DNA of 58,041 nt, from positions 1 to 58,041 of IMG/VR virus record IMGVR_UViG_3300045996_002471; one strand, given 5' to 3'. Below are positions 334-28,328 of the stretch, in pieces. Each line of letters begins with the position of its first letter. The stretch's first letter is position 1. Source of the stretch: a virus. A program made the position numbers and the translations under genes. Below the pieces are notes generated by a model. That model searched no databases, was not told the DNA's origin, and was given only the letters and a program-made list of their open reading frames with translations.

Positions 334-1173
334 ATGTACCCGGGGCCCACCCCCACCGTCCGCCCTCAGCCACCCGAGTTCAAGCTGAGCCGGCTGAAGA
401 AGGTCGCCTACGGCATGTCCGTGACCACCGGTGGCCTCGGCCAGGTGCTGTTCCTCGGCTCCGTCTTCGGTGGCACGGTCCTCTCCTACCTCGCCGCGAC
501 CGGCATGGCCGCGTTCGCGGAGTTCGTCATGGCGGCTTCCGGTGACGCCAGCCTGGACCACCGCGTGCACCACCGGGCATGGAAGCTGATGCTGGTCCTG
601 TCGCTGATCGTCGCCTGCTACGCGGGCGGCAACCAGATCGCGCACTTCTGGCACAACAACAAGGCGCTCGCGGTGATGTTCGCCGGGGCCAGCGTGGCCG
701 GGTTCCTGCTGCACATCCTCGACGGGCACATCCGGGCCGCCGCCTACCTGCGCGAGTTGTCCGCCTGGGAAGCCGCCGAGCGCAAGGCAGCCGCGCCGGT
801 ACAGCCGTCACAGACTGTCCGCGTCCAACCCCCGGTGCCGCGCCCAGAGGCCAAGCCTGTGGCCGTCACGCCCCCGGCTCCTGCCGTCAAACCCTCCGCG
901 GCCGAACCCGCTGCCGCGGTTCCGCAGCCGAGGTCCCTGCCCGCTGCCGACCCGAACAACGTCACCCCGATCACCAAGCACGGCGGGTTGTCGCAGCGTG
1001 AGCAGGCCTACCAGTGGTTCGCCGCGCAGATCGACGCAGCGGGAGGCGACCTGTCCGCCGTGTCCGGGCCCGACATCGCCGCACAGTTCGACTCCGACCA
1101 CCTGAAGAAGAAGATCACCGAATTCAAGCGGCGCTACGAAGCGGAACACCCGCCCGCCGCTGTCAACGACTGA
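334..1173 (+). CDS. Membrane protein with proline/alanine-rich linker and C-terminal helical domain
   Basis: 279 residues from ATG 334, chosen because GGAAGGA (321-327) lies 6 nt upstream. Hydrophobic segments lie at about residues 25-50, 87-105 and 113-133. A Pro/Ala/Val-rich linker follows (about 150-215), then a charged C-terminal domain (about 215-279) ending in a KKKITEFKRRYE helix that could bind nucleic acid or a partner. This layout resembles small membrane (spread-type) proteins next to traB in actinomycete conjugative elements, but no family was recognised. It is the first complete gene of the cluster leading to the FtsK-like ATPase. Confidence 0.75.
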   Translation: MYPGPTPTVRPQPPEFKLSRLKKVAYGMSVTTGGLGQVLFLGSVFGGTVLSYLAATGMAAFAEFVMAASGDASLDHRVHHRAWKLMLVLSLIVACYAGGNQIAHFWHNNKALAVMFAGASVAGFLLHILDGHIRAAAYLRELSAWEAAERKAAAPVQPSQTVRVQPPVPRPEAKPVAVTPPAPAVKPSAAEPAAAVPQPRSLPAADPNNVTPITKHGGLSQREQAYQWFAAQIDAAGGDLSAVSGPDIAAQFDSDHLKKKITEFKRRYEAEHPPAAVND

Positions 1174-1207
1174 CCGCCCGGACCAGGGCAAGGAGGAACG
1201 ATCCGTC

Positions 1208-1687
1208 ATGAATGGCGCAGACAGAGTGTGGCTCGGCGCGAACATCGTGGGTGTGGTCCTGCTGGTCTGGGGCGGCCTGCGGGTGTGGAAGAAGAAGCCG
1301 GCGAAGTTGACCACGTGGCTGTGGTTCGGCGCGGGCCTGACCCTCGGGGGCTGGCTCGTCGACAGCCTCCGTGAGCTGATCAAGAAAGCCGCGGCGGGTG
1401 CCAGCCCGGCGGTCGGCATCGGCATCTACTCGATCATCGGCATCACCGGCTGTGCCCTGATCTGGCTGATCCTGCACGAGTTCCCGCTCCGCAAGGGCCG
1501 CGGAGGCGGAGGGCCCGCGGTCGCCGGGGGCGCCGGGACAGCGGGGAAGACCTACATGCCGTACGTCGGCCTGCTCACGCCGGTCCTGCTCCTCACGACC
1601 CCGGGCGTCCTCGGCGACGGTGCCCGCTCGCTCAGCAACCTGCTGGGCAAGCTCGGGGGTCCCCTCGGCACGTTCATCGGGGCGTGA
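1208..1687 (+). CDS. Small multi-pass membrane protein
   Basis: 159 residues. Hydrophobic segments lie at about residues 8-25, 37-53, 68-90 and 115-135, and a Gly-rich loop (about 97-111) sits before the last one. AAGGAGGAACG precedes the ATG. It follows the previous gene by 34 bp and is followed within 1 bp by the next ATG, consistent with one operon. Its position upstream of a TraB-like translocase suggests a role in the transfer apparatus or envelope anchoring; that is inference from neighbours only. Confidence 0.7.
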   Translation: MNGADRVWLGANIVGVVLLVWGGLRVWKKKPAKLTTWLWFGAGLTLGGWLVDSLRELIKKAAAGASPAVGIGIYSIIGITGCALIWLILHEFPLRKGRGGGGPAVAGGAGTAGKTYMPYVGLLTPVLLLTTPGVLGDGARSLSNLLGKLGGPLGTFIGA

Positions 1688-1688
1688 C

Positions 1689-2195
1689 ATGGAGATCGTC
1701 CTGCTCTGCCTTCTGGTCGCCTGGTTCCTCGTCTACCGCTGCGTCCAAGACACCGCGACCCTGGCCCGGCGGGGAGCGGCGTGGGTCGCCGACCGGCTCG
1801 GCGCCCCCGAAGTCGCCACGTGGCTGCGCGACCAACCTTCACCCACACAGCCACGGACCTCCGACGGGCAGCGGATACTCGCCGCGCTCGGCGAGGTGGC
1901 GGCCTCCGGGGTGTTGCTGTTGCTGCTGTGGCTGCGGTTGGCCGTGATCGACGCGATCGGCGCTGCCCGTTCCGCCAGCCGCCGCCGCCCGGCGCCGGTC
2001 CCGTGGGAAGGGCTGTGGGCGTGGCTGCTGTGGCTGCTGCGCTGGCTGACCCGCTGGTTCCGGTGGCCCCGCGACGGCGAGCCGCACGCCCCGGTCCGGG
2101 CCACAGCCACCCGCACGGACCGCCCGCCTCCCGCCGCGCTGCCCCCCGGGCAGCCGGTCAGCGTCACCTTCACCTTCACCCACAACAAGGAGTAG
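1689..2195 (+). CDS. Trp-rich membrane protein
   Basis: 168 residues from ATG 1689, one base after the TGA of the preceding gene, which suggests translational coupling. There is an N-terminal hydrophobic helix (about 3-16), a second segment at about 71-90, and a Trp/Leu-rich stretch (about 105-130) ending in a basic, Pro-rich tail. No recognised domain. It belongs to the run of three consecutive membrane proteins in front of the FtsK-like ATPase. Confidence 0.68.
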   Translation: MEIVLLCLLVAWFLVYRCVQDTATLARRGAAWVADRLGAPEVATWLRDQPSPTQPRTSDGQRILAALGEVAASGVLLLLLWLRLAVIDAIGAARSASRRRPAPVPWEGLWAWLLWLLRWLTRWFRWPRDGEPHAPVRATATRTDRPPPAALPPGQPVSVTFTFTHNKE

Positions 2196-2197
2196 TC

Positions 2198-2515
2198 GTG
2201 AACGAACTGGAATCCGCGTCGACCACCGTCGCCGCCGGCGAGAACAGCCTGGCCACCTACCTCAGCTTCGGCCAGGGGATGGTCGACGCCTGCGAGCAGG
2301 GCTCCGGCCTCACCGAGACCACGACCGCGAACATGCGCACCAACGACTGGTCCGGCCCGCGCGTCGAGCACTACGAGCGCGGCAAGGAACTGCTCGACCA
2401 GGCCCGTGCCGCGTTCGCCGACGGTGTGACGGCGCTGGAGGAGTCGAAGATCGTCGCCGACGCCTACAACGCCGCGCCGGGCACCGGCAACAAGGAAACC
2501 GCCACCAACCTCTAA
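2198..2515 (+). CDS. Small soluble helical protein
   Basis: 105 residues from GTG 2198, with AAGGAG at 2188-2193. It is acidic and predicted mostly helical, with a central N-D-W-S-G turn (about residue 49) between helices. That superficially resembles a WXG-type helical hairpin, but the family is not established. It closes the first part of the cluster and is followed by a strong hairpin. Function unknown. Confidence 0.65.
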   Translation: MNELESASTTVAAGENSLATYLSFGQGMVDACEQGSGLTETTTANMRTNDWSGPRVEHYERGKELLDQARAAFADGVTALEESKIVADAYNAAPGTGNKETATNL

Positions 2516-2521
2516 CCCCTT

Positions 2522-2557
2522 GCCTTGCACCCGGACGGTCTCGTCCGGGTGCAAGGC
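2522..2557 (+). terminator. Perfect 15-bp hairpin between small gene and FtsK-like gene
   Basis: Positions 2522-2536 are the exact inverse complement of 2543-2557, with a 6-nt loop. There is no T-run on either side. It could terminate or attenuate transcription before the ATPase gene, or stabilise the upstream mRNA. Only 27 bp separate it from the ATPase start codon. Confidence 0.6.
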
Positions 2558-2584
2558 GGCCCGCCCGCCACGGAGGAACCCGTC

Positions 2585-4882
2585 ATGACCGTCCCGCCCA
2601 CCACCGCCCAGGTCGGATCCCAGGTGCTGCCCTACAACGGCGATCTCGCGTCGGTCGAGAAGCGGTTGCGCACCGAGCGGAAGTTGATGCTGCTGCCCGT
2701 GACCGGCGGGGCGGTTACCGTGTGGGCGGGGAGTGGGCTGCACGAGCAGATGCTGGCGGCGCTGGCCGTGGGCGGCCCGGAGATGCTGGCCATCGGGATC
2801 GGCGGGTCGGCGGCGGTGGCGACCGTGTCGACCGTTGTGCTGCTGGCCGCGGCGGCCCGGACGGGCACCGGTGACGCGCTGCCACATGTGGACGGGCACG
2901 TGAAGGGCCAGAAGCTGCTGGCGGTCCGCAGATTGCTGGCGGGTTCCGCGGGTGCGGGTGTGGCGTTGGCGGTCTTCGGCGGGCATCCGCTGATCGTCGG
3001 CGGCTACCTGGTGGCGGCGCTGATGTCCACCGGCCGCTGGCACCTCGAGCGGTTCCGTTCGCTTCGGGTGCTGAAGTCCGCCCGCGCCGAGATCTCACAG
3101 GCGGCGGTGCCCGCGCGGGGCGAGTCGCAGCCGACGGCCGAGGCGGAGGCCGTCGCGCCTGTCGCCCCGGTCGCGCCCGCTGAGATCGCCGAGATCGTGG
3201 AGCGGTGGCGGGTCGGTGTCGCGCCCAAGCACCTGCCGGGTACCTGGTTGACCAACGGGCAGGTTCACGACGAGGGCCGCATGTCGTTCGTGGTCAACTC
3301 CGGCCCGTCGGGTACCACTCTCGCCGCCGCACAGTCCGTGCTGGAGAAGCTTCCCGCAGCGCTGCGGCTGGCGCTGCCCGCGCCGGACGGTGGCGGCGGG
3401 CAGGACATCGTGTTCGACCAGCCCACCACCGGTGAGCTCGCCGACCGCTCACAGCTGCGGGTGCAGATCATCAACCGGTCGAGCAGGGCGGTGCGCGGCA
3501 GCCGGGTCACGCCCGAACTGGTGGTGTCGCCGACCAACCCGGGCGCGGCGCACATCGGCGGCTACGTCGACGATGCGAGCAACACGTGGTGGGACTTCGC
3601 CAGCGACTCCGGCGCCCACTCCGGCTTCGTGCTGGCCGGCACACGGCAGGGCAAGAGTTCGCTGTTCGACAACCTCGCCTACCGTGCCCGCCAGATGGGC
3701 TACCTGATCGCGTTCCTGGATCCGCAGCGCGGCGCGTCGTCTCCGGTGCTCGCGCAGCACGCCGACTTTCCTGTGCTCGGTGCCGAGCACACCCCCGAGT
3801 TCCATGCCTGGCTGGAGGCGGAGGCGGACCTGCGCGAGTCGTGGATGGGGGCCCACGGCCTGGGCAAAATCACCCCCTGGACACAGGCACCGTGTCGCCC
3901 CGGCGGGGAGCGTCCCGACCCTGACTGCCCGTGCGGCGGAGTCGTGCCGCCGGGGATCATGGCGTTCGTCGACGAGTGCGACCAGGTGTTCCGGCAGACC
4001 CTGCCCGGCACTACCACCACCCGGTGGGGTGGACCGTTCGGTGAGCAGGCCAAGCGCATCAACAAGCTCAACATGGGCTTGGTGACCGCCTCTCAGGTCC
4101 CCGAGCAGGCGATCTTCGGCGGCTCGGAGTTGCTGCGGTCCAGCCTGAGTACCCGCAACTTCCTGGCCATGAGGGTCAACGCCAACAGCGGCGCGGGCCT
4201 CATCCCCGGCCTGCCCTTCAACCCTTCGCTGCTGCCCCGCACCCCTGGGCGGGCGTTGATGTGCGGCGCCGAGTCCCGGCAGATGGAGGCCCAGTTGGAC
4301 TTCATGCCGCGCCGAGAGGACGCCGCGAAGCACGCCGGCCCGTACGCGGAGGACCTGTTCGAGCGGCTGCCGCGGGCACGCCAGTGGGCGCCGACCACGG
4401 CGGCTGCCCGCCGGTTGCTGCCCGCGCAGGGCGAGGACACGGCGGGGGTGTCGCGGCAGGCGGCGCGGAAGCGGTTGGCCCGGCTGATGAGCGGCGGGCA
4501 CGCCGAGCCGCGGGTATCGATCGCCGAGACCGTCCCTGCGGTGTCCACCGGGCCGGTGCCCGCCGCCGGCGGGTCGATGATTGCGTGGCCCGCCGCGGTG
4601 GGCGGCCCGGTCGCGGTCGCCGAGCGGCCCGCGACTGCGGGGACGCTGTCGGAGCGGCTGTTGCGTGCGCTGGACGGGCTGCCCGACGACCGGTGGGTGA
4701 CGATGGGCGACCTCGCCAAGCGCCTGGGTCGGGTCGCCGAGGACGCCGACACCCCCGAGGTGAAGGTGGCCGCGGCGTCGCTGGTGGCCGATCTGGCGGT
4801 CGAGGACGTCATGCTTCCCGGTCGACGCCGGACCGCGGGCATGTCCGCCACGGTCGGTCAGATCCGCGCGGTCCTGCAATGA
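2585..4882 (+). CDS. FtsK/SpoIIIE-type DNA translocase (TraB-like)
   Basis: 765 residues from ATG 2585 (GGAGG at 2572-2576). The N-terminus has several hydrophobic helices (about 40-125). The motor domain carries a Walker A, A-G-T-R-Q-G-K-S (about 352-359), and a Walker B, I-M-A-F-V-D-E-C-D (about 457-466). Between them is a Cys cluster (C-R-P-G then C-P-C-G-G). The C-terminus (about 690-765) looks like a small helical, winged-helix-type domain. This matches hexameric membrane-anchored dsDNA pumps; in actinomycete conjugative plasmids such proteins (TraB) move double-stranded DNA between mycelia. It sits among small membrane proteins and directly upstream of two short-repeat arrays, which fits TraB more than chromosomal FtsK. 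Some actinophages also encode FtsK-like proteins. Confidence 0.85.
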   Translation: MTVPPTTAQVGSQVLPYNGDLASVEKRLRTERKLMLLPVTGGAVTVWAGSGLHEQMLAALAVGGPEMLAIGIGGSAAVATVSTVVLLAAAARTGTGDALPHVDGHVKGQKLLAVRRLLAGSAGAGVALAVFGGHPLIVGGYLVAALMSTGRWHLERFRSLRVLKSARAEISQAAVPARGESQPTAEAEAVAPVAPVAPAEIAEIVERWRVGVAPKHLPGTWLTNGQVHDEGRMSFVVNSGPSGTTLAAAQSVLEKLPAALRLALPAPDGGGGQDIVFDQPTTGELADRSQLRVQIINRSSRAVRGSRVTPELVVSPTNPGAAHIGGYVDDASNTWWDFASDSGAHSGFVLAGTRQGKSSLFDNLAYRARQMGYLIAFLDPQRGASSPVLAQHADFPVLGAEHTPEFHAWLEAEADLRESWMGAHGLGKITPWTQAPCRPGGERPDPDCPCGGVVPPGIMAFVDECDQVFRQTLPGTTTTRWGGPFGEQAKRINKLNMGLVTASQVPEQAIFGGSELLRSSLSTRNFLAMRVNANSGAGLIPGLPFNPSLLPRTPGRALMCGAESRQMEAQLDFMPRREDAAKHAGPYAEDLFERLPRARQWAPTTAAARRLLPAQGEDTAGVSRQAARKRLARLMSGGHAEPRVSIAETVPAVSTGPVPAAGGSMIAWPAAVGGPVAVAERPATAGTLSERLLRALDGLPDDRWVTMGDLAKRLGRVAEDADTPEVKVAAASLVADLAVEDVMLPGRRRTAGMSATVGQIRAVLQ

Positions 4883-5222
4883 CATCACCCTCGGTGACGG
4901 AAAGCCCTGTCCGGATCGTCGGGCAGGGCTTCTCGCTTGGCCATGCAAGCTTGCATCGACCCATGCATTTTCGGCCATGCAAGCTTGCATCCCAATGCAA
5001 GGGTCGATGCAAGCTTGCATGGCCCATGACCTGCGAAAATGCAAGGTCGGGCGGGGTATGCAAGGGGTACCCTTGCATCTCGCCCAGTGGGCCGTTTTCG
5101 CAGGTCAGGGGCCTGTGTGCACGGATTCCCACCGTCACGCCGGCCCCCATGCATTCGTCGTCCTCGCGGGGCCGCCGCCCGTTCGCGGGGTCATCACCCA
5201 CTGTCACAGATCGGAGTCAGCA
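4883..5222. repeat. Non-coding region with nested ATGCAAG palindromes (candidate clt/oriT-like site)
   Basis: A 340-bp gap just after the FtsK-like gene. The 14-bp palindrome ATGCAAGCTTGCAT occurs at 4943-4956, 4977-4990 and 5007-5020. The first and third copies extend into 24-bp inverted copies of each other (4939-4962 and 5001-5024) centred almost on the second. A further perfect palindrome starting ATGCAAGGG lies at 5058-5078, inside a 13-bp inverted repeat TGACCTGCGAAAA (5027-5039) / TTTTCGCAGGTCA (5095-5107). Isolated ATGCAA copies occur at 4995 and 5039. Early on, 4908-4934 also forms a weak terminator-like hairpin. Such an array next to a traB-like gene is what one expects of a transfer locus or a multimeric protein binding site; the function is inferred. 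Confidence 0.75.
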
Positions 5223-5693
5223 GTGACCGACTCGACCGCCCTGCTCCTCGTGCTCGCCGCCGTTGCGTACGGGGTGTGGCACTGGCGCAACCGCTACACC
5301 GCGCCCGCCGCGCCGGGCGGACAGCTCGACACCGCGGAGTTGCGTGAGTTGGACATCGCGCTGGTGCGCTGCGAGCACCCCGACCATCACCCGGAGATGG
5401 TGCCGTTCGCGCCGGTCCGCTACCGGCACGCCCACGAGGACGTCCGCCAGCTCAGCCTCGACGGATGGGGAGCGACCGAGCGGATGAACACGTGCCGGGT
5501 GCACAACACCGCCGGCTGGGTCGGGGATCTGCACGTGCAGTGCTCGCAGCCCGGCTGCCAGACCCACCACCTGATCCCCGTAGCCGATCCCGAGGTGGGG
5601 ATGAGGGATCTGCGGAACCGGGGATGGTGCAACGTCGGGGACCGGGTGGTGTGTCCCTACTGCGCCGGTACCCGCTCCCGCGTCTGGCGCTGA
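5223..5693 (+). CDS. Membrane-anchored zinc-ribbon-like protein
   Basis: 156 residues from GTG 5223 (GGAG at 5213-5216). One N-terminal hydrophobic helix (about residues 4-18) is followed by a soluble domain. Cys/His pairs suggest a metal site: C-E-H near residue 47, C-R-V-H near 90, C-S-Q-P-G-C near 109, and a C-terminal C-P-Y-C knuckle. No family recognised. It lies between the two repeat arrays downstream of the FtsK-like gene, and copies of GGGGATC (5523) and GATCCCC (5573) already occur inside its coding sequence. Confidence 0.7.
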   Translation: MTDSTALLLVLAAVAYGVWHWRNRYTAPAAPGGQLDTAELRELDIALVRCEHPDHHPEMVPFAPVRYRHAHEDVRQLSLDGWGATERMNTCRVHNTAGWVGDLHVQCSQPGCQTHHLIPVADPEVGMRDLRNRGWCNVGDRVVCPYCAGTRSRVWR

Positions 5694-5828
5694 TCCCCGA
5701 TCCCCAGGGGAGTGCGGATCCCCACCTGCGATCCCCATCCGAGGTCCCCGCCGATCCCCACCTCGAACCCGCCCGCCGATCCCCACCGGCCCGCGGTCCC
5801 CACACCCCCGGTACCCACGTCGATCCCC
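5692..5828. repeat. GATCCCC heptamer array
   Basis: Seven exact GATCCCC copies in one orientation start at 5692, 5699, 5717, 5730, 5753, 5778 and 5822. Three GGTCCCC variants lie among them (near 5743, 5795 and 5837). They fill the roughly 150-bp gap between two genes. Given base composition, a 137-bp stretch should contain such a heptamer only rarely. The arrangement resembles recognition arrays of TraB/FtsK-family translocases or iterons. Confidence 0.75.
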
Positions 5829-5842
5829 AGGAGGTGGTCCCC

Positions 5843-6571
5843 GTGATGGGACGTACCCACGCCCTCACCGGCCTGTGCGCCGGCCTCGCCCTCGCGCCCG
5901 TCATGGCCGCGACGTTCGCGCAGTCGGTGCTGGTCGCGGTCGTGACCGCCGGATATGCACTGCTCCCGGACCTGGACCATCCCGGCGCCCGTGCCTCGCG
6001 CCTGCTCGGGCCGGTGACCGGGTTGCTGTCGCGGGCGGCCAGGGCGGGGAGCCGCTGGCTGTACGCGCGCACGAAAGGTCCCCGCGACGAACGCCACCGT
6101 GGGGAGCACCGGCACGCCACCCACACCGTCGCGTTCGCGGTGCTGGCGGGGATCGTGGCGGCGGCGGGTACCTGGGGAGCGGGGGCGTGGGTGGCGGCGG
6201 GGATCACCCTGCTGGGGACCCTGTTGGCGGTCGACGCGCTCGGGGACTGGCTGCTCCCCGTGGTGGGGATCGCGGGGATCGCGTGGTGGGGAGCGGCCGG
6301 CGGGGATGTCCTCGGGGAGTTGGCGGGGATCGGTCCGGCGTTGGGGATCGCGGTGGCGGTGGGGTGCGTGACGCACTGCCTCGGGGATGCGGTGACCCTG
6401 TCGGGGTGTCCGTTCCTGTGGCCGCTGCTGATCGCCGGGGAGACGTGGTACGAGCTGCGGCCGCCGCGGTGGTTGCGGTTCCGGACGGGCGGGGCGGTGG
6501 AGACGCGGGCGGTGTTCCCGGGGTTCGTGGTCTTAGCTGGGGCGTTGGCCCTCAACCTGCCACTGGGGTGA
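5843..6571 (+). CDS. YdjM/DUF457-like membrane-bound metal-dependent hydrolase
   Basis: 242 residues from GTG 5843, preferred over ATG 5846 because AGGAGG (5829-5834) is 8 nt upstream of the GTG. Family hallmarks are visible: the N-terminal G-R-T-H-A-L-T-G, a L-P-D-L-D-H-P segment (about 36-42), a His-rich R-H-R-G-E-H-R-H-A-T-H stretch (about 87-97), and the C-terminal H-C-L-G-D (about 178-182). Several membrane helices surround these. The family is predicted to hydrolyse an unknown substrate at the membrane. The gene is unusually rich in GGGGATC, encoding repeated Gly-Ile pairs. A strong bidirectional hairpin follows. Confidence 0.8.
   Translation: MMGRTHALTGLCAGLALAPVMAATFAQSVLVAVVTAGYALLPDLDHPGARASRLLGPVTGLLSRAARAGSRWLYARTKGPRDERHRGEHRHATHTVAFAVLAGIVAAAGTWGAGAWVAAGITLLGTLLAVDALGDWLLPVVGIAGIAWWGAAGGDVLGELAGIGPALGIAVAVGCVTHCLGDAVTLSGCPFLWPLLIAGETWYELRPPRWLRFRTGGAVETRAVFPGFVVLAGALALNLPLG
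6148..6349. repeat. GGGGATC repeats inside the hydrolase gene, inverted to the upstream array
   Basis: Exact GGGGATC copies start at 6148, 6199, 6265, 6274, 6325 and 6343, with near copies GGGGATG at 6302 and 6383. They are the reverse complement of the GATCCCC array at 5692-5828, so the two clusters point at each other across the start of the hydrolase gene. The repeats are in frame and encode Gly-Ile, so protein-level repetition is part of the explanation. Confidence 0.6.
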
Positions 6572-6580
6572 CTCGTCGAC

Positions 6581-6617
6581 ACGAGGGCCCCGCGCCAGAC
6601 TGGTGCGGGGCCCTCGT
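6581..6617. terminator. Bidirectional hairpin terminator
   Basis: A 13-bp perfect stem (6581-6593 with 6605-6617) and an 11-nt loop lie between converging genes ending at 6571 (plus) and 6631 (minus). The location and strength fit a shared intrinsic terminator, although no T-tract is present, as is common in actinomycetes. Confidence 0.75.
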
Positions 6618-6630
6618 CGTGCATGGGGGA

Positions 6631-7203
6631 TCAGTTCCCGAAGGCGATCAGGTGCTTGTACTCGCTGCCCACCCAGAGGGCCGCAGCGTGGTCCGTGTCG
6701 GTCAGCGCCTTGCGGTTCGACTCGGGGACCAGGTGGGCATCGCCGTGACGGAAGAGGTTGAGCAGGGCGGCGTCGACGTCGTCGACGTGGAAGCGGGCGA
6801 CCTCGTCGTGGTCGCGGATCTTGACCAGGCTGACCCAGTCCTGACCCTTGACAGCCAGGTTGAGGTAGGCGAGGTGGATGCCGGTTTCGACGTCGGTGAA
6901 CTGGCGCCCGGCGGCGGCGTCGTCCTCTTGGAAGAAGCCGTCTTCGATGGCCAGTAAGTGGTTGGCTTCGCCGCCGACCCAGAGGGCCGCGTCGTGGTCG
7001 TCCTGGGTCAACACCTTGCGGTTGGAGTCGGGGGCGAGGTGGACGTAGCCGGTCTGGACCATGGCGAGGAGCATCTCGTTCTGGGCCGCGGGGTCGGAAC
7101 TCAGCATGGGGCGGAGCTTGGCGAGGCGAACCCAGTCCTGCGGTTTCCGGCTGAGGTCGTCGTATGCGGCGACGATCTCGTCTTGGATCGAGTTGTAGTT
7201 CAC
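6631..7203 (-). CDS. Two-repeat acidic protein of unknown function
   Basis: 190 residues from GTG 7203 (CGGAGG upstream). The protein is an internal duplication. Residues about 7-86 align with about 105-188, both containing a D-W-V-(R/S)-L segment, a V/A-H-L-(A/V)-P-(D/E)-S-N-R-K segment and D-(H/T)-D-H-(D/A)-A-A-L-W-V-G ending in a H-L-(L/I)-A run. No signal peptide or membrane helix. It is the only minus-strand gene in the left block and is isolated, with its own leader. Function unknown. Confidence 0.75.
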   Translation of the reverse strand: MNYNSIQDEIVAAYDDLSRKPQDWVRLAKLRPMLSSDPAAQNEMLLAMVQTGYVHLAPDSNRKVLTQDDHDAALWVGGEANHLLAIEDGFFQEDDAAAGRQFTDVETGIHLAYLNLAVKGQDWVSLVKIRDHDEVARFHVDDVDAALLNLFRHGDAHLVPESNRKALTDTDHAAALWVGSEYKHLIAFGN

Positions 7204-18375: not shown

Positions 18376-19097
18376 TCAGGCCGCGGCGGCGGCGTGCAGG
18401 TGGGCGAGCAGGGCGGCGCCGATGTGCTCGGCGTAGAGCGGAGGGATCGCTTCCGAGAGGCCGTTCCCGGTCATCCAGTCGATGCCCATCGCCTCCGGGC
18501 CCACGTACGTGCCGATGTCCCCAGTCACGGAGGCGTGATAGCCCTGGTTCCACAGCTCGCGGCGCCGGCTGTGTGCGGTCCGGACCACGTGCTTGGGGTG
18601 CGCGGGGGCTACGAGCGAGAGGCCGGGCGAGGGTTCGAACCTGCGGTGCCGGTAGGTGCGCAGGCCGAACATCCCGCCGCACAGAACGATGGAGCGCTCC
18701 TTGTCGAGCGGGGCTTCCATCACGTTCTCGATGACCCACGGCATGTCGTAGGTCGACATCAGCTCACGGCCGGGGGTGACCAGGTCGGGCTTGTCCGACC
18801 AGAGCGTGCCTTTCTTGAACCCCTGGCAGGGCCACGAGGCGTGCACGGCGTCGAAGGACTCGACGAACGTCCGGTCGCGCAGTACCTCCATGGCGTCCGC
18901 CTGGATGAACACGCCTCCGCGGTGGCGGGCTGCGGCTCGATGTCGACGGCGGTCACGTCGAACCCGGCCCGGCGGTATCCCTCGGAGGCGCCGCCCTGCT
19001 TGGAGCAGAGGTCCAGCAGGCGGGGCCGGGTCAACCGCGGCGGGTTGGGGTGTGGCTGTCTGCCTCCGGGCAGTCGGGGCTCCGTGGGTGCCGTCAT
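18376..19097 (-). pseudogene. C5-cytosine DNA methyltransferase, frameshifted
   Basis: Starts at ATG 19097 (ATGA overlap with the DGQHR gene). The first frame encodes motif I, L-L-D-L-C-S-K-Q-G-G-A, and F-D-V-T-A-V-D-I. The remainder reads in another frame: motif IV with the catalytic P-C-Q (W-P-C-Q-G-F), motif VI E-N-V (W-V-I-E-N-V) and motif VIII R-H-R-R-F. Adding one base near 18926-18930 joins the halves into about 240 residues, a typical compact phage methylase without an obvious large recognition domain. Either inactivated or a sequencing error. If intact it would methylate cytosine to protect phage DNA. Confidence 0.8.
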
Positions 19098-20215
19098 GAC
19101 GCGACCCGCTCGGCGCGGAAGTTGGGCAACTGGCGCACAAGGTGTTCTTTGAGCAGGTGCACGTCCTGCGGGGTGTTCTGGATGCCGTCCCAGCGGCGGC
19201 GCTCCTCGTCGATGACCCATGTGCGGCCGGCGGTCCAGGCGCAGTAGGCGGCCAGGGTGTTCAGCTGGACACGCAGCCGGTCGCGATCGATGCCAGCGGC
19301 GGGGGTGTCCTCGGTGATGTGGTCCATGACGAAGCCGAGGGCTTGGATTCCGGCGCCGTGGGTGAGCCGGGACTTGCGGGGCGGGAGTTCCCACTGGTCG
19401 GCCCATACCTCGGCGACCGCCGACCAGAAGGCGTCGAGGTGCGCGGTGATTGCGTCGAGGTCGCCCATGCCGGTGGCGGGGTCCCGGTACTGGTAGAGGG
19501 CTCCGTCGGTGAGGCTGTTGCGGATCATGCGCAGGACGGCGGTGCCGGTGATGTAGCCGTCCGGGCAGGTGGTGGTGCGGATGCGGCCGGCGAACGCGTG
19601 GCTGGCGGTGTTGAGCCGTGCCACGACCGCCGCGGGCAGGCGCCGGGCGGCCATCGCGGGGGGCAGGGTGGCGTCGACACCGGGCAGCAGCTCGTTGACC
19701 AGTCCGGCCGGGAGCGGCTTGGTGTTGTTCACCAGCAGGAACTGTGAGCGCTGCTCCTCCTCGGATTCCGCGGTGAACCCGACCACGGCGACCGCGAACG
19801 GGCCGGTCAGGGACGCGTCGCGCAGGGCGGCGGCGCGCTGCTGGCCGTCGACGATCCACGCGGGGCGTTCGTGTTCGGGCTGGTCGGAGTCGACCGGGAT
19901 GACCAGCTCGCCCGGGACGGCATAGTCGACGGGGCTGGGCACCAGCAGCGGTTCGAACCGGACGCGTTGGTCGAAGGCGACGACGATCGCGTTGGGCAGC
20001 ATGGCGCCGTGGCGTTCGAGGTAGCGGCGGATCCCGCGGATGTGGGCGAGGGCCTCCGGGCGCTGGTAGCCGCGGAGTTCCTGGTCGGTGTCGCGGTGGA
20101 CGCGGGACACAGCGGCGAAGGTGTGCAGCTGGGGGCCGTCGACGGCGAAACTGACGACCCGGCGGCCGCCTTGGACGAGTTGGAGCGCGGGGAGGCGGAG
20201 GACGTGTGCGGTCAT
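19094..20215 (-). CDS. DGQHR-domain protein (DndB-like)
   Basis: 373 residues. The signature I-V-D-G-Q-Q-R (about 121-127) followed by helices, and a later F-L-L-V-N-N-T-K-P-L-P segment, match the DGQHR/DndB group. DndB is the regulatory ATP-binding member of DNA phosphorothioation systems, and relatives occur with 7-deazaguanine DNA modification. No other dnd or dpd genes are in the window, so it is an orphan. Its start overlaps the following methyltransferase by 4 nt, suggesting a joint DNA-modification or defence-evasion role. Confidence 0.75.
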   Translation of the reverse strand: MTAHVLRLPALQLVQGGRRVVSFAVDGPQLHTFAAVSRVHRDTDQELRGYQRPEALAHIRGIRRYLERHGAMLPNAIVVAFDQRVRFEPLLVPSPVDYAVPGELVIPVDSDQPEHERPAWIVDGQQRAAALRDASLTGPFAVAVVGFTAESEEEQRSQFLLVNNTKPLPAGLVNELLPGVDATLPPAMAARRLPAAVVARLNTASHAFAGRIRTTTCPDGYITGTAVLRMIRNSLTDGALYQYRDPATGMGDLDAITAHLDAFWSAVAEVWADQWELPPRKSRLTHGAGIQALGFVMDHITEDTPAAGIDRDRLRVQLNTLAAYCAWTAGRTWVIDEERRRWDGIQNTPQDVHLLKEHLVRQLPNFRAERVAS

Positions 20216-26408: not shown

Positions 26409-26684
26409 TGCAGGGTCTGCAGGGTCTGGTCTCCAAAATGCAGGGTTTGACACCTAATGTGGAAACGTGCCCTGACCAGGGATATGCAGGGTGTGCAGGG
26501 TTTGCAGGGTTTGTTTTCTACCCCTACACATAGCGCGCACACACGCACACGCACACGGACCTCTCCACGGACCCCGCAAACCCTGCACACCCTGCAAACC
26601 GCAGGTCAGGAAGCACGTCGTCTGGCCCCGCAAACCCTGCACCCAGACCCTGCAGACCCTGCAGCGCCACCCGCAAACCCTGCA
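26409..26684. repeat. Six plus six converging TGCAGGGT iterons (candidate phage origin)
   Basis: TGCAGGGT starts at 26409, 26418, 26439, 26485, 26494 and 26503. Its reverse complement ACCCTGCA starts at 26580, 26589, 26634, 26647, 26656 and 26677. Most neighbours within a group are 9 bp apart. The 70-bp centre is richer in A/T and contains CACACG-type repeats. The whole gap 26311-26747 has no gene and lies between the accessory operon promoter and the helicase gene, the usual place for a phage origin. Confidence 0.75.
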
Positions 26685-26747
26685 GACACGACGACGCCCG
26701 GCAGCCGAACGCGCCACGGGACACCGACACCACCTGCTCCACAGTCA

Positions 26748-28328
26748 TCACTCCACGACCACCACGCGGTACCGCCACGTCTTCGTCCGGTCCTTCGCAC
26801 GCATCAGCTTCAGCCCGCGGCCCTGGTCATCCAGACCGAGCACAGCGCCCCGCTTGTCCGACAACTTCTTCCCAAGCGCTTTGGACGAGGTGAACTGGTC
26901 GATCCCCAGCGGAAGCTCCGGCACCGCCGCCGAACCGTGCTCGGACTTCAACGCCGCCAACACCTCGCCGGCGGTCGCGCCGTCGGCTTTGACCTTGCCG
27001 ATGTCCTCGAGCAGCCGGTACACCAACGCGAACTGTTCCCACTGCTGGGTCTCTTCGTCGACCTCGTCTAGCTGCTCGATGCGTCCGTGCATGAGGCCTT
27101 CGATGCCAGCGTTGCGGAGGATGCCGTCGATGACGCGGCACCAGGACTCGAACGAGGGCAGGATGGCGGTGCCTTCGGGTTGGCCGGCGGCGATCCATGC
27201 CTGCACCAGGGTGGCGAGGGCACCTTGGATGCGGCCGCGGTTGACGCGTGCCCATCGGTCGAGGTCTTTGTGGCGCCAGGTCGTGTAGTCGCGGGGGTGC
27301 GGTTCGATGCGCACGATCATGGAGCGGCGGGCCATCTCGGCGGACATGGACATGCCGTTGCCGGTGACGACCCACGCTGCCGGGGAGGCGAGTTCGATGT
27401 TGTCGGAGGTGCCGAGGATGCGGGCTTCCCAGGCGGGGTAGGCGGTGACGGCGGCGGCGAACGTGCCGGAGTCGATGGTGTCGTTGACGTTGTCGAACAC
27501 CATGACCGCGCGTCCCTTGCGGGCTTGGGAGACGAGGGCCTTGCCCCATTCTTCGCTGGTGGTGGGCGCGGTGGGCAGGGTGCTGTCGCCGACGGCGTGG
27601 CCGGTGACCATGCGGGTGAGCTTGGTCTTGCCGCTGCCGGCGGAGGGGGCGTCGAGGACGTACAGGGGCCGGGGCCCGTTGATGAGTTCGGTGACCATCG
27701 GGGTGAGCATCAGGCCGAGGAGCGCGGCCAGGTCGCCAGCCGGGTTGGTGAGGAGGAAGTCGCCGAGGAGGTCTTCACAGAGCAGCGCGAGCGCCTCTTG
27801 TACGTCGGTTTCGGTGGGCTTGTCGGGGATGTGGGGGACTTCGACGCCGCTCTCGGGGGCGAAGTAGGTAGCGGACTCCCAGATGTAGCCAGGCTGGTCG
27901 TGGTAGCCGCCGCGGCTGTCGAATGTGGGGCACATGGTGACTTGCTTGAGCCTGGGCAGGCCGAGCGCGTGGGCGCGGTCGTAGAGGCCTGACAGGTCGT
28001 CGAGTGCGGGTTTGGTGGCGACGAGCGCCCCACCCTTCTTGGCGTCGGTGCGCATGGTTTTGACCATGGCGACGACGCGGGACCGGAACGCGGAGGGGGT
28101 CATGTCGCGGAGTGCAGGGGCTTCGCCGTCGCGGCCGAGGTCGACTTCGACGAGGCGTCCAGAGCGGATGTAGACGAGCGGGTTGTGGTCGCGGGCGTTT
28201 CGGGTCTCGATGTGTTTGGCGAGTTCGAGTTCGAGTTCGTGGAGGTCGCGGTCGTTGATCACGACGACGGGCCGTTCTTGGGGTTCGGGGGTGGTGGGCC
28301 GCGCGGAGGCGAGGCGGAGGTTGTTCAC
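26748..28328 (-). CDS. SF3/AAA+-like phage replicative helicase
   Basis: 526 residues from GTG 28328 (GTGA overlap with the upstream gene). Walker A P-S-A-G-S-G-K-T (about 228-235), Walker B A-V-M-V-F-D-N (about 274-280) and a W-V-V-T-G-N-G sensor segment (about 319-325) followed by R-R are typical of superfamily-3-like helicases fused to plasmid/phage initiation proteins. The N-terminus (1-200) is a separate domain and the C-terminus is probably a small winged helix. It would unwind the origin; the iteron array is immediately downstream at 26409-26684. No phage DNA polymerase or primase is visible, so the host replisome is likely used. Confidence 0.82.
   Translation of the reverse strand: MNNLRLASARPTTPEPQERPVVVINDRDLHELELELAKHIETRNARDHNPLVYIRSGRLVEVDLGRDGEAPALRDMTPSAFRSRVVAMVKTMRTDAKKGGALVATKPALDDLSGLYDRAHALGLPRLKQVTMCPTFDSRGGYHDQPGYIWESATYFAPESGVEVPHIPDKPTETDVQEALALLCEDLLGDFLLTNPAGDLAALLGLMLTPMVTELINGPRPLYVLDAPSAGSGKTKLTRMVTGHAVGDSTLPTAPTTSEEWGKALVSQARKGRAVMVFDNVNDTIDSGTFAAAVTAYPAWEARILGTSDNIELASPAAWVVTGNGMSMSAEMARRSMIVRIEPHPRDYTTWRHKDLDRWARVNRGRIQGALATLVQAWIAAGQPEGTAILPSFESWCRVIDGILRNAGIEGLMHGRIEQLDEVDEETQQWEQFALVYRLLEDIGKVKADGATAGEVLAALKSEHGSAAVPELPLGIDQFTSSKALGKKLSDKRGAVLGLDDQGRGLKLMRAKDRTKTWRYRVVVVE

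Follow-up and report, generated by a model that had tools for sequence, protein, structure and literature searches.

A short-word repeat array overlying coding sequence in a TraB/Spd-like module of temperate actinophages

The carrier genome and its module

The DNA considered here, referred to as the window, is IMG/VR record IMGVR_UViG_3300045996_002471 at its full length of 58,041 nucleotides. It carries genes expected of a temperate tailed phage (terminase, portal, major head protein, tape measure and integrase), along with RecE/RecT and a primase/polymerase-like protein, and its TerL shares 61% identity with the Streptomyces phage Samy protein. As a temperate phage genome of actinobacteria, with a Spd/TraB-like module at 334-6571, the window differs in setting from the actinomycete conjugative plasmids evoked by the first-pass annotation. 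Terminase genes are found in the records of three relatives as well (L009, L015 and L020), an indication that phage genomes are where the module belongs. Elsewhere in the window, a phage-borne DndB-like protein (PF14072, 6e-25) is encoded on the minus strand at 19094-20215. The module and its repeats are composed as follows.

334-1173, 1208-1687, 1689-2195 and 2198-2515, plus strand: four small module genes, in an order common to L009, L016 and L022
2585-4882, plus strand: TraB/FtsK-like translocase candidate, 765 aa, with Walker A AGTRQGKSS, Walker B IMAFVDE and a predicted C-terminal winged helix
4942-5107, no strand assigned: array A, three ATGCAAGCTTGCAT palindromes and ATGCAAG copies, with the inverted repeat TGACCTGCGAAAA (5027) / TTTTCGCAGGTCA (5095-5107)
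5223-5693, plus strand: small cysteine-rich protein, 156 aa, with an N-terminal membrane helix (by eye) and conserved Cys/His, ending CPYCAGTRSR
5523-5690, mixed strands: array B, portion within the small-protein gene (3' half), GGGGATC 5523, GATCCCC 5573, GGGGACC 5637 and GGTACCC 5667
5691-5842, plus strand: array B, intergenic part, 11 GRTMCCC (7 GATCCCC, 3 GGTCCCC, 1 GGTACCC), consensus CGATCCCCA
5843-6571, plus strand: ydjM-like membrane-bound metal-dependent hydrolase gene (PF04307, 2.3e-21; phrog_20744, 7.8e-45)
6148-6350, minus strand: array B, in-gene part, 8 sites (6 GGGGATC, GGGTACC 6166, GGGGACC 6214)

The protein encoded at 2585-4882 contains a P-loop and a predicted C-terminal winged helix at residues about 688-765. 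It has no match in Pfam, PHROG or PDB sequences and no relative among the 50,697 phage records searched, and it is treated as a candidate member of the FtsK/TraB family by motifs seen by eye and by gene neighbourhood. An AlphaFold model of the whole protein was unusable (pLDDT 40); that of the C-terminal domain was fair (75.7), and a Foldseek search with it returned no significant match. The last of the four small genes (2198-2515) encodes a 105-aa protein that is WXG100-like by eye and is kept in all five elements compared below.

Composition and conservation of array B

Array B is built from the 8-bp word GRTMCCCR, mostly GATCCCCA in the window, with about 24 copies over 0.83 kb. Its heptamers had been placed by the first-pass annotation, every coordinate of which proved exact on recount: GATCCCC occurs eight times (5573, 5692, 5699, 5717, 5730, 5753, 5778 and 5822), and GGGGATC occurs at 5523 and at six positions in the ydjM-like gene (6148, 6199, 6265, 6274, 6325 and 6343), all six reading in frame as x-GGG-ATC (Gly-Ile). 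The enrichment check proposed there is clear in outcome, with 15 GATCCCC/GGGGATC copies in 5523-6349 against a mean of 0.69 and a maximum of 5 in 2000 local dinucleotide shuffles. The same interval holds nine variants absent from that annotation (GGTCCCC six times and GGTACCC three times, on either strand), and the wider family GRTMCCC reaches 24 (shuffle mean 2.16, maximum 9). Over the whole window, GATCCCC/GGGGATC occurs 32 times (shuffles 11.5 +/- 3.7), no other 7-mer clusters as densely as GATCCCC in a 150-bp scan, and the GRTMCCC family beyond 5200-6600 amounts to 35 copies over about 56.6 kb.

Each part of the array is enriched in family sites. The 3' half of the small gene (5523-5690) holds 4 against 0.34 expected from local shuffles, with p=0.002 for these in-gene sites under codon shuffling, and the spacer (5691-5842) holds 11, all forward, against 1.4 expected from local shuffles. 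At 6148-6350, within the membrane part of ydjM, all eight sites are reverse and are read in frame as either Gly-Ile or Gly-Thr; the initial 300 bp of the gene contain one family site.

Homologous modules were recognised in four elements, L009, L015, L016 and L020, which together with the window make up five core elements that are related to one another. L009 shares 68% identity with the window in the translocase and 74% in YdjM. In all four relatives the array occupies the same place, across the 3' part of the small gene, the spacer and the membrane part of ydjM, with a log10 P of the best word between -17 and -62, and genome-wide the word is concentrated, in each listed record, in a single stretch of about 1 kb. 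The 156-aa small-protein gene adjoins array B in all five core elements, and the array lies 0.6-1.5 kb downstream of the translocase gene.

Conservation of the array was also followed into more distant loci. The ydjM control loci (L011, L012, L021, L023, L024, L031 and L145) hold nothing comparable, phage PIS 136 possesses ydjM and lacks the array, and L011, L013 and L021, whose translocases are more distant (28-36% identity), have ydjM and no array. The first-pass annotation had named loci that keep the same protein and lose the repeats as evidence against its reading; none was found at a translocase identity of at least 45%, where five of five elements carry the array, although the 36% homologue L021 is such a locus. 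Genome contig scans gave as their sole result a 36% homologue in Prauserella endophytica with the array absent. A viral-contig scan for GATCCCCA triplets yielded 62 stretches, with the L015 record as the single relative recognised among them. Three-copy clusters in 390 Pseudonocardiaceae genomes were mostly ordinary tandem repeats, with module proteins in 0 of 40 fetched loci.

Behind unrelated translocases, a GTCCC(C)-type word is kept in the ydjM of distant L034 (codon shuffle p<0.0025) and weakly in that of distant L032 (in-gene p=0.17). In L034, GGGGAC/GTCCC words run densely through ydjM at 6001-6819, behind an unrelated P-loop translocase-like gene. Plasmid phiM2 of Streptomonospora litoralis (L146; NZ_CP036456), annotated as a phage-plasmid, shows a P-loop translocase-like gene, a CCCGTGCC array and then ydjM. 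The in-gene arrays of L033 and phiM2 failed or barely passed the codon-shuffle test and were set aside.

Overlay on coding sequence and dialects

In the window, ydjM contains 9 GRTMCCCR sites against 3.7 expected under within-gene codon shuffling (p<0.001). Across the five core elements the same gene holds 9-12 sites against about 2.5-3.7 (p<0.001 in each), and the small gene is likewise enriched (p at most 0.004), while the translocase gene shows no significant excess (p=0.055 in the window; 0.055-1 across the five elements). An unsupervised form of the codon-shuffle test, which takes the best word in any spelling, was significant in the five core elements and L034 and was not significant in L032, phiM2 and most controls.

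The spelling of the word differs from element to element. L009 is almost purely GGTACCCG, with 32 GGTACC palindromes in 1.4 kb; L015 uses GATCCCCA/GGTCCCCA, L016 a mixture of GATCCCCA and GGTACCC, and L020 a looser TCCCCA version, and the window and L009 each retain a few copies in the other's spelling. A G-quadruplex reading of the array was considered and rejected, since the GGTACC dialect speaks against it. Within ydjM, homologous codons carry the sites (residues about 103, 109, 120, 125, 142, 145, 162, 168 and 172), and L009 is respelled at these codons with site positions unchanged. The encoded dipeptide tracks the spelling, GGGATC giving Gly-Ile and GGTACC or GGGACC giving Gly-Thr; between residues 90 and 190, array-bearing ydjM genes encode 7-10 such dipeptides against 0-3 in other ydjM genes, where GGC codons prevail.

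That codon shuffles fail to account for the sites, and that homologous codon positions are kept across elements despite the respelling, identifies array B, on sequence grounds, as a selected DNA signal written over coding sequence. The suggestion of the first-pass annotation that the in-gene half is such an overlaid signal is thereby upheld. A functionless origin in codon bias or local mutational drift is accordingly barely credible, for although G-rich codon use in ydjM lifts the base rate (GGG makes up 66% of its Gly codons), the enrichment extends to the spacer and both genes, codon shuffles do not account for it, the sites keep their positions despite the changed spelling, and the ydjM genes of unrelated loci with equal codon use examined here lack such density.

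Reader, function and known systems

The first-pass annotation saw in array B the right size, place and neighbour for a cluster of TRS, the short repeats of the clt transfer locus. As to size and place, a cluster of ~8-bp direct repeats is confirmed (11 forward in 5691-5842, 24 in all), and it does adjoin a traB-type translocase candidate, conserved in five elements. Array B would then be a clt locus, its TRS copies bound by the winged helix of the 2585-4882 protein, which would pump double-stranded phage DNA between hyphae. The clustering of an 8-bp word 0.6-1.5 kb behind the translocase gene, its presence in five of five elements with a translocase at least 45% identical, and the C-terminal winged-helix-like domain predicted in that protein are all consistent with this. 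The known TRS of pSVH1 is GACCCGGA, 8 bp (PMC5133688), and the motif here is GRTMCCCR, a mismatch that is not excluding, since TRS vary among plasmids.

The spelling of array B, however, does not track the winged helix. The window and L009 have the closest pair of these domains, 68% identical with nearly the same predicted helix 3, and strongly different arrays, whereas those of L015, L016 and L020 are 45-49% identical to that of the window and yet share its main spelling. Motif and winged helix show no significant correlation over 10 non-independent pairs (Spearman -0.21, p=0.55), a small sample, drawn as it is from no more than five core elements that are themselves related. The translocase domain is thus unsupported as reader, and several loci with ydjM and a translocase have no array at all. 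What stands of the TRS/clt reading is a real array, conserved, overlying coding sequence and placed beside a translocase-like gene; what lacks support is the translocase as its reader. In this full form the reading is rather unlikely, and, the defining translocase link having been tested and not found, array B is not filed as TRS.

Array A lies directly 3' of the translocase gene, the position of clt in pWTY27 (PMC3583192). Its words are ATGCAAG in the window, CATGCA/CTTGCA in L009, CTGCAA(CA) in L015 and L016, and CATGCA in L020, with GGTCCAC in distant L032 and CCGTGCC in phiM2, and among the core elements their motif follows the winged helix better (Spearman +0.53, p=0.11, 10 non-independent pairs). 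The inverted repeat TGACCTGCG...CGCAGGTCA is nearly fixed at 139-150 and 211-223 bp past the translocase stop codon, with both arms in the window, L009 and L016 and a single arm in L015 and L032. By its clt-like position and its closer tracking of the translocase, array A appears the better clt candidate, and the translocase's own site more likely lies there, at 4942-5107, than in array B.

The putative reader of array B is probably not the adjacent winged helix, and it may be something more conserved than the translocase, as GTCCC(C) words are kept in ydjM beside unrelated translocases, clearly in L034 and weakly in L032. A translocase of relaxed specificity (GRTMCCC) could nevertheless read both dialects, so that the argument against it is not a refutation.

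An action at the level of RNA or single-strand DNA, in which forward spacer words pair with reverse ydjM words to control translation or form a large hairpin, is improbable. The spacer is forward and ydjM reverse in all five core elements, spacer words pair to in-gene words in predicted folds with z of -3.4 (window) and -3.6 (L015) against shuffles, and the complementarity survives the change of dialect. The reverse in-gene orientation nevertheless follows from coding, given that Gly-Ile/Thr is tolerated in membrane segments and Asp-Pro or Ile-Pro hardly, and L016 has a 57-bp spacer with few copies yet 12 sites in ydjM. Moreover, the irregular spacing allows no fixed register, and the copies in the small gene are of mixed orientation.

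Short direct repeats partly within a coding gene occur at phage origins, as in lambda O, and the module order of phage-plasmid phiM2 is similar to that of the window. A replication or partition site (iterons or a centromere) serving a phage-plasmid stage is nonetheless quite improbable for array B, as the window has an integrase, no ParA/ParB was recognised among the subset of proteins scanned, and array B does not adjoin a replication gene. The primase/polymerase-like gene at 26748-28328 has its own repeats, and TGCAGGGT/ACCCTGCA at 26409-26690 beside it is the better iteron candidate. These candidate replication-origin iterons form two opposed clusters, the first of six TGCAGGGT and the second of six ACCCTGCA.

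Recognition by the host FtsK as a KOPS-like polar sequence would fit a G-rich 8-mer in orientation-biased clusters, but it is very improbable, as the chromosome bearing the L020 prophage has TGGGGATC at 8 leading to 24 lagging, without the leading-strand polarity expected (40 sampled 20-kb pieces, 800 kb, with arms that assume the record starts near the origin). On this actinomycete chromosome (G067; loci L147-L186), GGGGGAGC at 73:6 and GGGGGAG at 178:38 leading to lagging are themselves a KOPS candidate.

On balance, the evidence leans towards array B being a polyvalent protein-binding DNA site of a transfer-like (TraB/Spd-like) module in a family of temperate actinophages. The copies would be coated or bridged cooperatively by a sequence-specific protein, and the bound array would mark this locus of excised or circular phage DNA for the DNA-handling step of the module, be it loading, membrane anchoring or segregation. 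Spacing seems to count for less than copy number and density, and its irregularity suggests polyvalent coating rather than one defined complex. Copies would be written wherever both flanking proteins tolerate them, as Gly-Ile/Gly-Thr in YdjM membrane segments. As the preference of the reader drifts between elements the sites would drift along, giving rise to the dialects (GATCCCCA, GGTACCCG, mixed), presumably by way of an intermediate of relaxed specificity; L016 may show such an intermediate stage.

If true, temperate actinophages would have conjugation-like DNA-pump modules equipped with cis sites of their own, and the arrays would be a natural record of a multi-copy recognition site respelled without loss of function, even to the point of altering the protein encoded by the gene it crosses. 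The dialect series of GATCCCCA, mixed and GGTACCCG would allow a direct test of how a DNA-binding protein coevolves with some 20 sites. Whether this amounts to a new class of cis site can be put only tentatively: a dense word array running through genes of a conjugation-like module carried by phages, with dialects changing in concert, dictating membrane-protein residues and served by a conserved non-translocase reader that organises phage DNA transfer or segregation.

By analogy, array B resembles the TRS/clt or sps-type sites of actinomycete transfer modules (PMC5133688, PMC3583192, PMC4170104). With the TRS/clt sites read by TraB (pSVH1, pIJ101, pJV1 and pWTY27) it shares clusters of 7-9 bp repeats near the translocase gene, a motif that varies from element to element and a possible extension into coding sequence, the clt of pWTY27 reaching 16 bp into traA (PMC3583192). 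It differs in its motif (GATCCCCA, not GACCCGGA), in a spelling that does not track the translocase winged helix, in its phage genome and in the spread of about 24 copies over 0.83 kb through two other genes. The SpdA/sps system of Streptomyces plasmids likewise has a short repeated site that lies partly in a transfer or spread gene and whose reader is a module protein distinct from TraB, but sps is a 12-bp palindrome in 1-3 copies (PMC4170104), whereas array B has many copies of an 8-bp word, and no SpdA homologue was recognised in the window. KOPS/SRS of FtsK/SpoIIIE are also G-rich 8-mers with orientation, in contrast to which the word of array B is clustered at one locus and is not polar as expected on the sampled host chromosome. 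In the DUS dialects of Neisseria, a short word is spread over coding and non-coding DNA and its spelling shifts in concert between relatives. The likeness to array B lies in this concerted respelling over both kinds of DNA, although DUS are genome-wide and array B is confined to about 1 kb. Against known repeat-array cis sites, it is the coding overlay and the change of dialect that set array B apart.
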